Source of the DNA: Stenotrophomonas sp. ZAC14D1_NAIMI4_1
Lineage (GTDB): Bacteria > Pseudomonadota > Gammaproteobacteria > Xanthomonadales > Xanthomonadaceae
Direction: 5' to 3'
Assembly (NCBI RefSeq): GCF_003086775.1
Contig: NZ_CP026001.1
Location: 2,940,407-3,004,406 of the forward strand
DNA length: 64,000 bases
Positions 7,937 through 49,918 of the stretch are shown piece after piece (position 1 is the stretch's first letter; each line of letters opens with the position of its first letter). The position numbers were made by a program, and so were the translations under genes. The notes beneath the pieces were generated by a model that made no database searches, was not told where the DNA came from, and saw only the letters and a list, made by a program, of their open reading frames with translations.

Positions 7937-9340
<1,404 letters not shown>

Positions 9341-9441
9341 GGGGTTCCTTTGCGGCGGCGGCCGCGGGCGCTGCCTGCGGCAGGCAACTGCAACAGCAAC
9401 AGCTAACGTCAAAGGCGGCTCTGGGTTATGCCTTGCTTGGC

Positions 9442-9539
9442 GGGGCGGGTTGGGTTCGCGGGACACGCCGTGAACCCGTCCATGGGGGCTCGTAGGCGCC
9501 ATCCATGGCGCCTGCGGTCCCGCGAACCCAACCCGCCCC
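9442..9539. repeat. Large structured inverted repeat, copy 1 (three-way-junction type)
   Basis: Perfect 23-bp arms (9442-9464 and 9517-9539) enclose a 52-nt core. The core holds two small hairpins, each with an ATCCAT- or GTCCAT-type apex (about 9474-9486 and 9494-9512). A GACAG-TTCC-type flank follows the right arm. Related copies are at 9726-9829 (inverted) and 49621-49720. The arm sequence differs between copies while pairing is kept. Confidence 0.85.
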
Positions 9540-9597
9540 ACCCCTGACAGATTCCCGGTGACGGATCGAAGAGCATTGGGTTGTCGGGACGGAATTG

Positions 9598-9635
9598 AGA
9601 GGGACGCGGCTTCGCCGCGTCCCTCTTTGTTTTTC
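9598..9635 (+). terminator. Strong Rho-independent terminator in the purB-roxA gap
   Basis: A 13-bp perfect stem (9598-9610 with 9614-9626), a TTC loop and a TTGTTTTTC tail. It lies about 260 nt after purB and could end purB readthrough or a separate short transcript that includes repeat copy 1. Confidence 0.88.
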
Positions 9636-9725
9636 GGCGCTACACGAGCAAGCGCAGCGCGCGACCCGCGTTGCCTTTGCTTTTCTTCTTCCATTCCGTG
9701 GCGGGCCGCGCAGGAAACTGTCAGG

Positions 9726-9829
9726 GGCCGGGTGGGGTGGGTTCGCGGGACCGTTGGCGCCATGGATGGCGCCATCGAGCCCCCATGGATGGGTTTACGG
9801 CGTGTCCCGCGAACCCACCCCACCCGGCC
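9726..9829. repeat. Large structured inverted repeat, copy 2 (inverted orientation)
   Basis: Perfect 26-bp arms (9726-9751 and 9804-9829) around a 52-nt core. The core is the reverse complement of copy 1's, with the same two CCAT-apex hairpins. Its outer flank CTGTCAGGGG (9717-9726) is the exact complement of CCCCTGACAG after copy 1, so flank and element are inverted together. Apart from copies 1 and 2 and the terminator, the 9341-9998 gap shows nothing gene-like. Confidence 0.85.
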
Positions 9830-9998
9830 CAGCGCGGCTTCGGCTTGTGAACCCACCCCGCCACGAGGGGCTCCGCCGTTGGCCGGAACCCCCGCGACAA
9901 ACCCGCGCACGTGCGCAATCCCCACGAACGGCGGACAATGGAGATCTCAGGCGGCCCGCCACGCCGCCCCTCCCGCTTTCCGCTGCAAGGAATCCCCC

Positions 9999-11414
9999 AT
10001 GGCCGCCCGCAAGTCCACCGCTCCCCTCATCGAAGTCACCGCCCGCCCCGGCAAGCCGCTGGGCATGGCCCCGGCCACGTTCCTGCGCGACTTCTGGCAG
10101 AAGCGCCCGCTGCTGATCCGCAATGCCTTCCCCGATTTCCAGACCCCGGTGCAGCCGGAAGACCTGGCCGGGCTGGCCTGCGAGGAAGGCGTGCTGGCGC
10201 GCCTGATCCAGCACGACAAGGCCCAGGACGGCTGGCGCGTGCGCAGCGGCCCGTTCCAGGAAGAGGTGTTCCCCGCCCTGCCCGACCGCGACTGGACCCT
10301 GCTCGTGCAGGACGTCGACAAGTGGGACCCGGACGTGCGCGCCCTGATCGAGCACTTCAGCTTCCTGCCGCGCTGGCGCATGGATGACGTGATGATCAGC
10401 TTCGCCGCCACCGGTGGCTCGGTCGGCGCCCACGTCGACCAGTACGACGTGTTCCTGCTGCAGGCCCACGGCCACCGTCGCTGGCAGATCGACGCCAGCG
10501 AATCGATCAAGGGCAAGCGGCCCCCGCTGGGCTTCCGCCCGGACGTGGAACTGAAGCTGCTGCAGGTGTTCAAGCCGACCCACGACTGGGTGCTGGCGCC
10601 GGGCGACATGCTGTATCTGCCGCCGAACGTGCCGCACCACGGCGTGGCCGAAGACCCCTGCCTGACCTTCTCCTTCGGCATGCGCGCGCCGGCCTCGGCC
10701 GAGCTGATCAGCGACTACCTGGACACGCTCATCGCCGATGCGGACGAGAACATCCGTTACCAGGATCCCGACCTGAAGGTCCCGGCCGATCCGAACGAAA
10801 TCGATACGGTAGCGATGGCACGGGTGATCACCGCGCTCAACGCCATCCGCATGAACGATCCGGACAAGCTGGGCGACTGGTTCGGCCGCTTCATCACCAC
10901 CTACCGCGCGGCGGGCGAAGTGATGGCCCACCAGGCGGCACCGGCACCGGAAGAAGTGGTGCAGGCGCTGGCTTCGGGCCTGCTGCTGCAGCGCCACCCG
11001 TGGGCACGCCTGGCCTGGCGCCGGGCCAAGCGCGGCGCCAGCCTGTATGTCAGCGGCCAGGATTTCGCCCTGCCGGTGAAGGACGCACAGCGCCTGGCCG
11101 GCGCCGAGCAGATGGACGCGGCGGCCTATCGTGGCCTGTCCGACAAGGGCCGCGCGGTGCTGCAGCAGCTGCTGGTCGGCGGCGTGTTCCAGCTGATCGA
11201 CCCGAACGAGGTGTTTGACGCCGAGGACGAGGACGAAGGCGAGGATGCCGCGGTGCTGGGCGAAGTGGTCGAAGGCCACGACCAGGTGGCCGAGCTCGAC
11301 GACGAGGTGGTCTCCGACGACGTGCACACCGTAAACGTGCACGACGACGGCATCGAGGTCATCGTCAACTTCGAAGACCACGACGAAGACGACAGCAACG
11401 ACGGCCGCGCCTGA
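9999..11414 (+). CDS. roxA: Ribosomal oxygenase RoxA/YcfD-type (cupin, JmjC-like) with acidic tail
   Basis: A 471-residue Fe(II)/2-oxoglutarate oxygenase of the type that hydroxylates an Arg of ribosomal protein L16. The metal-binding HVD is at 145-147 (GAHVDQYDVFLLQ) and the distal His is in LPPNVPHHGV (about 213). FLRDFWQKRPLLIRNAF marks the family N-terminus. E. coli YcfD has 373 residues. This protein ends in an added tail (408-471) in which 26 of 64 residues are Asp or Glu. The start at MAARKST has AAGGA upstream. It is followed after 3 nt by a GNAT gene, so the two are probably cotranscribed. Confidence 0.88.
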   Translation: MAARKSTAPLIEVTARPGKPLGMAPATFLRDFWQKRPLLIRNAFPDFQTPVQPEDLAGLACEEGVLARLIQHDKAQDGWRVRSGPFQEEVFPALPDRDWTLLVQDVDKWDPDVRALIEHFSFLPRWRMDDVMISFAATGGSVGAHVDQYDVFLLQAHGHRRWQIDASESIKGKRPPLGFRPDVELKLLQVFKPTHDWVLAPGDMLYLPPNVPHHGVAEDPCLTFSFGMRAPASAELISDYLDTLIADADENIRYQDPDLKVPADPNEIDTVAMARVITALNAIRMNDPDKLGDWFGRFITTYRAAGEVMAHQAAPAPEEVVQALASGLLLQRHPWARLAWRRAKRGASLYVSGQDFALPVKDAQRLAGAEQMDAAAYRGLSDKGRAVLQQLLVGGVFQLIDPNEVFDAEDEDEGEDAAVLGEVVEGHDQVAELDDEVVSDDVHTVNVHDDGIEVIVNFEDHDEDDSNDGRA

Positions 11415-42658: not shown

Positions 42659-42681
42659 TCCGGCAGGTGACGGTGGCAATG

Positions 42682-42709
42682 AAAAAGGCCCGCTTGCGCG
42701 GGCCTTTTT
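42682..42709. terminator. Bidirectional terminator
   Basis: AAAAAGGCCCGC, TTGC loop, GCGGGCCTTTTT between the lipoprotein gene (+) and the cold-shock gene (-); T-runs on both strands. Confidence 0.92.
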
Positions 42710-42731
42710 CGTGCAGCACGCTGCAGGCCGT

Positions 42732-42941
42732 TCAGACCGGCTCTACGGCATCTGCCTGCAGGCCCTTCTGGCCCTGCACGACGGTGAAGGTGACCTTCTG
42801 GCCTTCCTTCAGGCTCTTGAAGCCCTGGGTCTGGATGGCACGGAAATGCACGAACACGTCTTCGCCGTTTTCACGGCTGATGAAGCCGAAGCCCTTTGCA
42901 TCGTTGAACCACTTGACGGTACCGGTCTCGCGATCAGACAT
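42732..42941 (-). CDS. Cold-shock protein, CspA family
   Basis: A 69-residue single-domain nucleic-acid chaperone. The RNA-binding motifs are [15 protein letters not shown] (RNP1 region) and DVFVHFRAI (RNP2), with [14 protein letters not shown] completing the barrel. The start is taken at MSDRETG because AGGGAG lies 8 nt before it; an upstream in-frame GTG has no ribosome site. The 234-bp gap to the divergent DUF456 gene may hold a long 5' leader like those of other cold-shock genes, but I cannot define a thermosensor. Confidence 0.95.
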
Positions 42942-43175
42942 CTCACTCACTCCCTGGTGACTCTCTTGTTGTTGGAAACGCCTGTTGGGCGGCTGACAAG
43001 CAAGGGGGAAGCGAGGTGCAACGATGCAGCGGATCGAAGAGATCTTGCTTCATCAGGCCACGATCCACGGTGACCTTGCCAAGCTCAGCGACTGCAACTT
43101 AACCCGACCAAAACGAAAAAGCAACTGCCAAAATTCTTCACTGTCAACCCCAAAAAGACCACCATACTGGACAGC
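42942..43175. other. Divergent intergenic region with low-GC segment
   Basis: The gap between the cold-shock gene and the DUF456 gene is markedly A/T-richer at 43090-43150 than the rest of the window. It must contain two divergent promoters. On the minus strand, TTGACA (complement of 43141-43146) is a good -35 candidate for the cold-shock gene, but a matching -10 is not clear. Confidence 0.45.
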
Positions 43176-49533: not shown

Positions 49534-49620
49534 GGGGGTTTTCTGGCCGGGCTGCGCCCGGCACCCGCAGAGGCAACGGCCAGAGCAGGGCAACGTCAAC
49601 TGCTGGCTTTCTGCGGAATG

Positions 49621-49720
49621 GCGGGGTGGGTCCGGTTGCGGGGGACGCCGTAAACCCATCCATGGGGGCTTGGTCGCGGCATCCATGCCGCTCACACCCC
49701 CGCAACCGGACCCACCCCGC
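49621..49720. repeat. Large structured inverted repeat, copy 3 (three-way-junction type)
   Basis: Perfect 24-bp arms (49621-49644 and 49697-49720) and a 52-nt core with two CCAT-apex hairpins. The arms share the family pattern GGGGTGGGT but differ from copies 1 and 2 beyond it, with matching changes on the other side. The second inner hairpin reads GCGGCATCCATGCCGC here and GGCGCCATCCATGGCGCC in the other copies. A GACAGTTTCCC flank follows. It begins a run of different repeats filling 49534-49950. Confidence 0.85.
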
Positions 49721-49773
49721 CTTCGACAGTTTCCCGCGGCCTGTCGGAACGGCATCCCGTGCCAGCTGCTGTT

Positions 49774-49827: not shown

Positions 49828-49918
49828 GGGGTCAGATCCCTTCGCATGGCGAAGGGCTCTGACCCCGAAGCGCGGTAGTGGGGTCAGAGCCCTTTGCGAC
49901 GCAAAGGGATCTGACCCC
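49828..49918. repeat. Two GGGGTCAGA-type palindromes in tandem
   Basis: Copies at 49828-49866 (GGGGTCAGATCCCTTCGC...) and 49880-49918 (GGGGTCAGAGCCCTTTGC...) each end with TCTGACCCC. Stem sequences differ (CTTCGC/GCGAAG versus CTTTGC/GCAAAG) but pairing is perfect in both. Other members are at 32274-32312 and 55572-55610. Confidence 0.82.

Follow-up and report, generated by a model that had tools for sequence, protein, structure and literature searches.

A Dispersed Palindromic Repeat of Stenotrophomonas with Paired Hairpin Loops of the CsrA/RsmA Type

Introduction

The sponge RNAs of the CsrA/RsmA system, such as RsmY/RsmZ, CsrB/CsrC and the Xanthomonas RNA RsmU (PMC7694677; PMC numbers here and below point to excerpts of the respective articles), are known transcripts of one or a few loci per genome, and carry several GGA hairpin loops of the ANGGAN type per RNA at a spacing suited to the protein dimer. 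RsmN and RsmA both bind loops of this form, contacting the two guanines and both adenines in a base-specific manner (PMC3791407), and the CsrA/RsmA dimer favors two sites that lie 10-55 nt apart (PMC6028588). The family of repeats described in this work, which is known from sequence, shares the loop type and the spacing, but differs from the sponge RNAs in having at least 150 copies in a single genome, and in holding two sites in one rigid junction per copy. Searches of open-licence PMC papers showed us no report in which CsrA/RsmA is connected with a dispersed repeat from these bacteria.

Several families of dispersed palindromes also invite comparison. ERIC, about 127 bp long, is an imperfect palindrome of intergenic regions, and in this respect resembles the present family. 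It is co-transcribed with its neighbors (PMC2229807). Identity with ERIC is rejected by score, with a best value of 3 bits against our family model, filters off, for one E. coli ERIC region. REPs measure 20-40 bp, carry a GTAG foot and are associated with RAYT genes (PMC3733652, PMC3686654); the SMAG/GTAG REPs and the TIR/TIRYT repeats of Stenotrophomonas are likewise dispersed intergenic palindromes, often paired, and occur in the same genome as our family, whose units of about 105 nt differ from SMAG REPs in showing neither a GTAG foot in the alignment nor RAYT genes. By description, the YPAL/RU-2 palindromes of Yersinia are similar, being about 168 bp long with internal inverted repeats and tens of copies, and target sites at or near dyad symmetry (PMC2229807, PMC2267715); the term CsrA does not occur in PMC2229807.

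One named relative is Rfam RF02770 (Ysr224, Yersinia sRNA 224), filed as a single sRNA gene, against which a Sodalis copy of our family scores 82.9 bits (gathering score 70). The RF02770 model covers the left flank, the left arm and the core of the opposite (UCC) strand, and lacks the right arm; it is a truncated relative, or fragment, of the family. In the genome studied here, at least 49 matches to RF02770 were obtained at E ≤ 1e-3 (150 of 1245 candidates scored), none of which reaches the gathering score of 70 bits. The possibility raised in the initial annotation, that this is an already named repeat, thus holds for a fragment, known from Yersinia, and does not extend to any copy in the present genome at the Rfam cut-off.

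Results and Discussion

Three Units in the Window

The window analyzed here is a stretch of 64,000 nt from Stenotrophomonas sp. ZAC14D1_NAIMI4_1 (contig NZ_CP026001.1), which contains three copies of one palindromic element (Table 1). Unit 1 is paired with unit 2, which has the inverse orientation, in the interval from a gene that ends at 9340 to one that starts at 10000, and unit 3 is solitary. Each unit comprises arms of 25-27 nt flanking 52 nt of core. The initial annotation had described two perfect arms of 23-26 bp around a 52-nt core with two small hairpins, the whole foldable as a three-way junction. The core and its hairpins are present in all three copies (CCCGTCCATGGG / GGCGCCATCCATGGCGCC in copy 1, CCCATCCATGGG / GGCGCCATCCATGGCGCC in copy 2 and CCCATCCATGGG / GCGGCATCCATGCCGC in copy 3), and the arms are indeed 100% complementary in units 2 and 3, but only 96% complementary in unit 1, where C9441 and A9540 form a single mismatch close to the outer end; read on the reverse strand, these two bases make a G-U pair. 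Either strand of all three units is predicted to fold into a long stem topped by a junction from which two hairpins branch, with fold energy z-scores of -7.8 to -11.3 and none of the 200 dinucleotide shuffles of each unit being equally stable, in agreement with the proposed three-way junction. On the strand on which the loops contain GGA (the GGA strand, opposite to the UCC strand read in the initial annotation), the predicted loop of hairpin 1 in the window copies has 8 bases instead of being a hexaloop, and still exposes the GGA.

Table 1. Positions of the repeat units and associated features in the window.
Feature	Positions	Strand	Description	Basis
Unit 1	9439-9542	minus (putative functional strand)	outer stem 9439-9464 / 9517-9542, two hairpins	model match 9434-9559 +
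Unit 1 strong hairpin	9500-9507	minus	apex CAUGGAUG, candidate CsrA/RsmA-type site	sequence and loop census
Unit 1 second hairpin	9477-9484	minus	apex CAUGGACG, candidate CsrA/RsmA-type site, 23 nt past the first	sequence and spacing
Unit 2	9725-9830	plus (putative functional strand)	stem 9725-9751 / 9804-9830; inverted relative to unit 1	model match 9709-9834 -
Unit 2 strong hairpin	9761-9768	plus	apex CAUGGAUG	sequence
Unit 2 second hairpin	9784-9791	plus	apex CAUGGAUG	sequence
Unit 3	49620-49721	minus (putative functional strand)	second subfamily; stem 49620-49644 / 49697-49721	model match 49615-49738 +
Unit 3 strong hairpin	49680-49687	minus	apex CAUGGAUG	sequence
Unit 3 second hairpin	49657-49664	minus	apex CAUGGAUG	sequence
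Unit 1-2 pair interior	9543-9724		GACAG and CTGTC near its two ends	
Terminator-like hairpin	9597-9627	plus	14 pairs, inside the unit 1-2 pair interior	
Outer leader	9341-9438	plus	stop codon of upstream gene to unit 1; hairpin and CAACAG/CAACGT-type repeats	

The leader upstream of unit 1 resembles those of other copies of the family. The window pair has two terminator-like sites, compared to 1.2 ± 1.1 in shuffles, and a search of units 1-2 returned no promoter-like site. A scan of the window against Rfam gave no family at cut-off over the three units, the sole match being a cspA thermoregulator RNA at 42679-43090 on the minus strand (102.6 bits).

A High-Copy Family in the Home Genome

The genome-wide search proposed with the initial annotation was performed using a covariance model derived from 46 copies, taking matches at E ≤ 1e-3. 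The family has at least 150 matches in this genome of 4.70 Mb (150 of 5750 candidates scored), found in 95 places: 53 inverted pairs, one triplet, and 41 single units, 22 of them minus and 19 plus. All 53 pairs run plus-minus and the triplet plus-minus-minus, such that the plus-minus order is seen in 53 of the 54 multi-unit places, with no other arrangement of units within 1.2 kb. As a result of this order, a transcript that crosses a pair from either side would run through the UCC-strand form before it reaches the GGA form.

The interiors of most of the 53 pairs start near GACAG and finish near CTGTC, and contain REP modules, tracts rich in T or in A, or terminator-like hairpins. Many pairs enclose SMAG/GTAG REPs and TIR/TIRYT repeats. 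In some cases (for example L044, L131 and L036) two classes of REP module take turns in long, regular arrays, as if the inverted pair were a landing zone for REPs. The REP classes present point to a Stenotrophomonas as the source, as we read PMC3686654. Many units are bordered on the outside by a leader of about 75 nt, which has a hairpin and CAACGT-type hexamer repeats of its own; the runs of CAACGT/CAACAG between this hairpin and the unit vary in number (for example at 9383-9415 of the window), and are a possible variable-number marker.

Based on approximate gene orientations from our own gene caller, the outer gene ends toward the unit at 92 of 149 unit sides, with these units starting a median of 82.5 nt past the stop codon (66 of the 92 within 60-100 nt); at the remaining sides the median distance from the start codon is 167 nt.

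The element looks modular in build. The loop of hairpin 1 is replaced by an insert of about 85 nt in seven of the 147 home units of the loop census described below, and in 13 cases across all stretches searched. This insert is conserved and contains GGCCCAGCCGCTGGCGGCT (loci L040, L041, L088, L092, L093, L095, L112, L120, L124, L129, L130 and L133, as well as L193 and L185), and at L124 hairpin 2 is likewise exchanged for a different insert.

Selection on Structure

The arms and inner hairpins of the window copies had been noted to differ while remaining complementary, suggesting selection on shape. This reading gains considerably from the wider family, in which both the arms and the hairpin stems covary strongly. 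Within one genome, 21 of the 38 pairs show changes on both sides with pairing kept. In alignment A3, drawn from the purB locus and from genomes other than the home one (113 distinct rows, including some reverse-strand shadows, fitted to the model), this is the case for 38 of 38 pairs (mean of 31.1 in shuffles), with 95.9% of cells pairing and a covariation score of 0.659, compared to 0.150 ± 0.006 in shuffled alignments and at most 0.091 when partners are slid.

For the purB locus, 18 of the 30 loci retrieved were read in the orientation of the gene. The 11 orthologues of unit 1 found there vary in arms and stems; the hairpin 1 loop reads NTCCNT in all 11, and the hairpin 2 loop ATCCAT in ten and TCCT in L200. 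One of these loci (L183) is without unit 1 and three (L202, L207 and L208) have no unit in the stretch read, which makes them candidate unoccupied sites with approximate boundaries. In L186, a long insertion that is insertion-sequence-like by eye begins at 2397 inside hairpin 1 of the unit 1 orthologue.

These data support selection on the structure of the family, with gene conversion among copies as a factor that could contribute to the covariation. Because arms and stems covary, also between the purB orthologues (more informally in that case), simple duplication is unlikely.

Strand Preference of the Arms

A function exercised in DNA alone predicts arm mismatches that are G-U about equally often on both strands. 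We scored the arm mismatches of 331 units (6 of 337 dropped) as G-U on each strand, and obtained 274 on the GGA strand and 27 on the UCC strand, noting that these counts come from related copies and that the events are not independent. The corresponding numbers are 197 and 27 for distinct contexts, 79 and 4 in the home genome, 195 and 23 elsewhere, and 147 and 20 in the inner 20 columns with one hot column left out. Units retrieved by pattern from records not titled Xanthomonadales gave ratios of 31:8, 23:4 and 12:2 in three settings (33, 30 and 28 units, respectively), and a laxer, gap-rich alignment of 44 units from such records gave 55:36 (p = 0.06).

On account of this 274:27 skew, the arms point to folding of the GGA strand. 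A mutation bias linked to transcription could contribute to the skew, in which case the GGA strand would be the transcribed one, and single-stranded DNA could also be a source. The hairpin stems show no strand bias, with 12 G-U pairs on the UCC strand and 9 on its reverse. The pair adjoining the loop is often G-U on the UCC strand (22 of 46 at hairpin 1, and 40 G-U to 50 A-U in A3); we assign this position to the loop, as its free N, although, if it is a pair, it favors the UCC strand. The G-T wobble that had been pointed out in copy 1 falls, on an ANGGAN reading of the loop, at a position where the family shows free variation. Taken together, the earlier suggestion of a structured transcript receives indirect support from the arms, but for the strand opposite to that originally read.

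Hairpin Loops of the CsrA/RsmA Type

On the GGA strand, the apex of each hairpin reads CANGGANG, the loop of RsmA/CsrA sites. For a census of the loops, alignments A2 (the 150 best of 178 matches), A3 (114 of 114) and A4 (the 150 best of 291) were combined to 414 rows, which, once identical sequences and rows overlapping a better match had been dropped, left 337 distinct units. Among these, 633 of the 643 four-base loops fit CANGGANG: 139 of 140 at hairpin 1 and 146 of 146 at hairpin 2 in the home genome, and 175 of 179 and 173 of 178, respectively, elsewhere. The home values are favored by the choice of the seed copies of the model, which were picked by a pattern that fixes most of both loops; this bias is lesser for variants elsewhere and for hairpin 2 of a pattern set that leaves this hairpin free, in which the apex contains GGA in 112, and A(N)GGA in 102, of 123 units (the home order included). 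The 31 remaining loops are of other lengths, and include the inserts of about 85 nt described above. All four bases occur at each N of CANGGANG across the whole set, and outside the home genome the C, A, G, G, A and G are conserved at 98-100%, while the adjoining stem bases are variable.

Exactly two CANGGANG sites are found in 299 of the 337 units, with a spacing of 23 nt in 281 of these 299, compared to one composition shuffle in 6740 with two sites. This spacing suggests that a unit would suit one RsmA/CsrA dimer. The predicted sites thus have the features of sponge RNAs, namely GGA in hairpin loops of the form ANGGAN and a distance within 10-55 nt. One unit from a distant genome (L072) reads GUACAAGGAUGUAU, which we take to contain the CsrA SELEX consensus.

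The home genome has one CsrA gene. CsrA was detected in 47 of 52 family-bearing genomes and in 26 of 28 genomes without a match; it was not detected in the other five family-bearing genomes, including one that is 98% complete (G524). Since CsrA is frequent with and without the family, its carriage is uninformative.

Spread beyond the Home Genome

Family matches occur in at least 23 of 41 close relatives (up to 85 candidates scored per genome), 73 of 299 genomes and 23 of 85 genera of the order (up to 11 candidates per genome), and 40 of 274 genomes and 36 of 221 genera of the class (up to 12 candidates per genome), with the home genome included in each case. The exact core pattern matched at least 119 stretches, and the 80 of these matches that were listed include Microbulbifer, Marinobacter, Rheinheimera, Alteromonas, Shewanella, Alcanivorax, Pseudomonas, Methylotuvimicrobium and Xanthomonas. 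The family is a real, structured, widespread and high-copy element.

The plus-minus order is also found in other genera (up to 150 candidates scored per genome). Close-lying pattern matches include the exceptions minus-minus (L317 and L358), plus-plus (L356) and minus-plus (L357), where intervening units that do not fit the pattern would go unseen. In another genus of the same bacterial family, a tandem array of six units alternates between plus and minus with a period near 294 bp (L144, 1059-1919). Annotated plasmids and phages gave no family match and viral sequences gave a single viral contig, on which grounds we reject phage or plasmid cargo.

An RNA Element with Paired CsrA/RsmA Sites as the Best-Supported Explanation

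The explanation best supported by the sequences, and one that we consider probable, is that the family is an RNA element presenting paired RsmA/CsrA sites, which has spread in the manner of a MITE and serves as decoys or as RsmA-addressed sites. Each unit would give rise to an RNA of about 105 nt from the GGA strand, in which a stem of 25-30 bp closes a three-way junction with two hairpins, each with a CANGGANG apex, 23 nt apart, and a single RsmA/CsrA dimer would span the two loops. Copies would have spread as a non-autonomous palindromic repeat into intergenic regions, at gene ends more than at starts. The many copies would jointly titrate RsmA/CsrA as decoys, while locally the units may render read-through transcripts responsive to RsmA. 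Transcription, protein binding, decoy function and mobility are each steps that we infer from sequence patterns.

Several observations count against this explanation. A terminator-like hairpin on the plus strand lies between the window units, the window pair shows no promoter-like site, and single units are not preferentially placed in sense with a neighbor able to transcribe the GGA strand (22 of 41). The prevalent gene-end orientation (92 of 149 unit sides) also places the GGA strand antisense to the gene concerned. The inserts at hairpin 1, the 8-base loop predicted on the GGA strand and the modeling of RF02770 on the other strand weigh in the same direction, as do the 102 of 123 units of the pattern set with A(N)GGA at hairpin 2, the five family-bearing genomes in which CsrA was not detected and the 55:36 ratio of the laxer alignment, and our confidence is further lowered because the counts for the hairpin stems and the loop-closing pair lack the bias seen in the arms.

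Among the alternatives, we consider it unlikely that the hairpins are recognized as single-stranded DNA by a one-strand transposase, in the manner of IS200/IS605 or REP/RAYT, with the GGA loops as marks and with no RNA involved. Such a mechanism could account for the many copies with subfamilies, for the plus-minus order in 53 of 54 multi-unit home places, and for the one-strand G-U/G-T bias of the arms, which single-stranded DNA could also produce. The CANGGANG loop with its free N and the 23 nt spacing match, however, an RNA-binding protein, and no true unit is present in the flanks (up to 1.5 kb) of any of 34 Y1-transposase genes (PF01797), four from the home genome and 30 of 52 matches in 16 relatives, out of 56 matches listed, a comparison that pertains to the Y1 type only. 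Two weak model matches beside one such gene (L275) belong to another palindrome. We therefore reject mobilization by RAYT/TIRYT, and the RAYT-like substrate considered in the initial annotation is not borne out at these genes; the non-autonomous mobile element considered alongside it is plausible from copy number and subfamilies.

A different repeat does occur near some Y1-transposase genes. The window contains two inverted copies of 39 nt of GGGGTCAG...CTGACCCC at 49828-49918, and repeats of the GGGGTCAG type flank such genes in relatives (L252, L253, L255, L256 and L258). These repeats fit the GGGGWSAS motif of TIRs (PMC3733652).

It is likewise improbable that the units are purely structural elements of 3'-untranslated regions that terminate transcripts, or block 3'-5' decay, on whichever strand is transcribed and with no specific protein. 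The position of units at gene ends, at the short distance past the stop codon given above (approximate gene calls), would be expected of such elements, and effects on co-transcription and mRNA stability are reported for Yersinia repeats (PMC2229807). This explanation nevertheless leaves six fixed and two free loop positions unexplained, and the arm asymmetry favors the strand that is antisense to those genes.

The GGA of the loops is similar to the Shine-Dalgarno core. A mobile palindrome whose conserved loops pair with or mimic something else, through kissing loops or ribosome/Shine-Dalgarno contacts, is nonetheless quite improbable, as kissing needs mutually complementary loops, which, judging from the sequence, two ANGGAN loops are not.

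Conclusions

Paired RsmA/CsrA sites in RNA would join two fields, that of the long intergenic palindromes, which have no agreed role, and that of the CsrA/RsmA system, in a group where the excerpted literature describes no BLAST match of the classical sponge RNAs in sequenced Xanthomonas (PMC7694677). More tentatively, and at a probability that we would place below even, a mobile palindrome may have spread hundreds of two-site CsrA/RsmA ligands across the class, with total intergenic read-through setting the level of free regulator, so that repeats of the genome would do the work of a sponge in place of one regulated sRNA. Were RsmA to bind the units, this class of repeats would take a direct part in regulation, and the conservation of its loops would have a selective cause.
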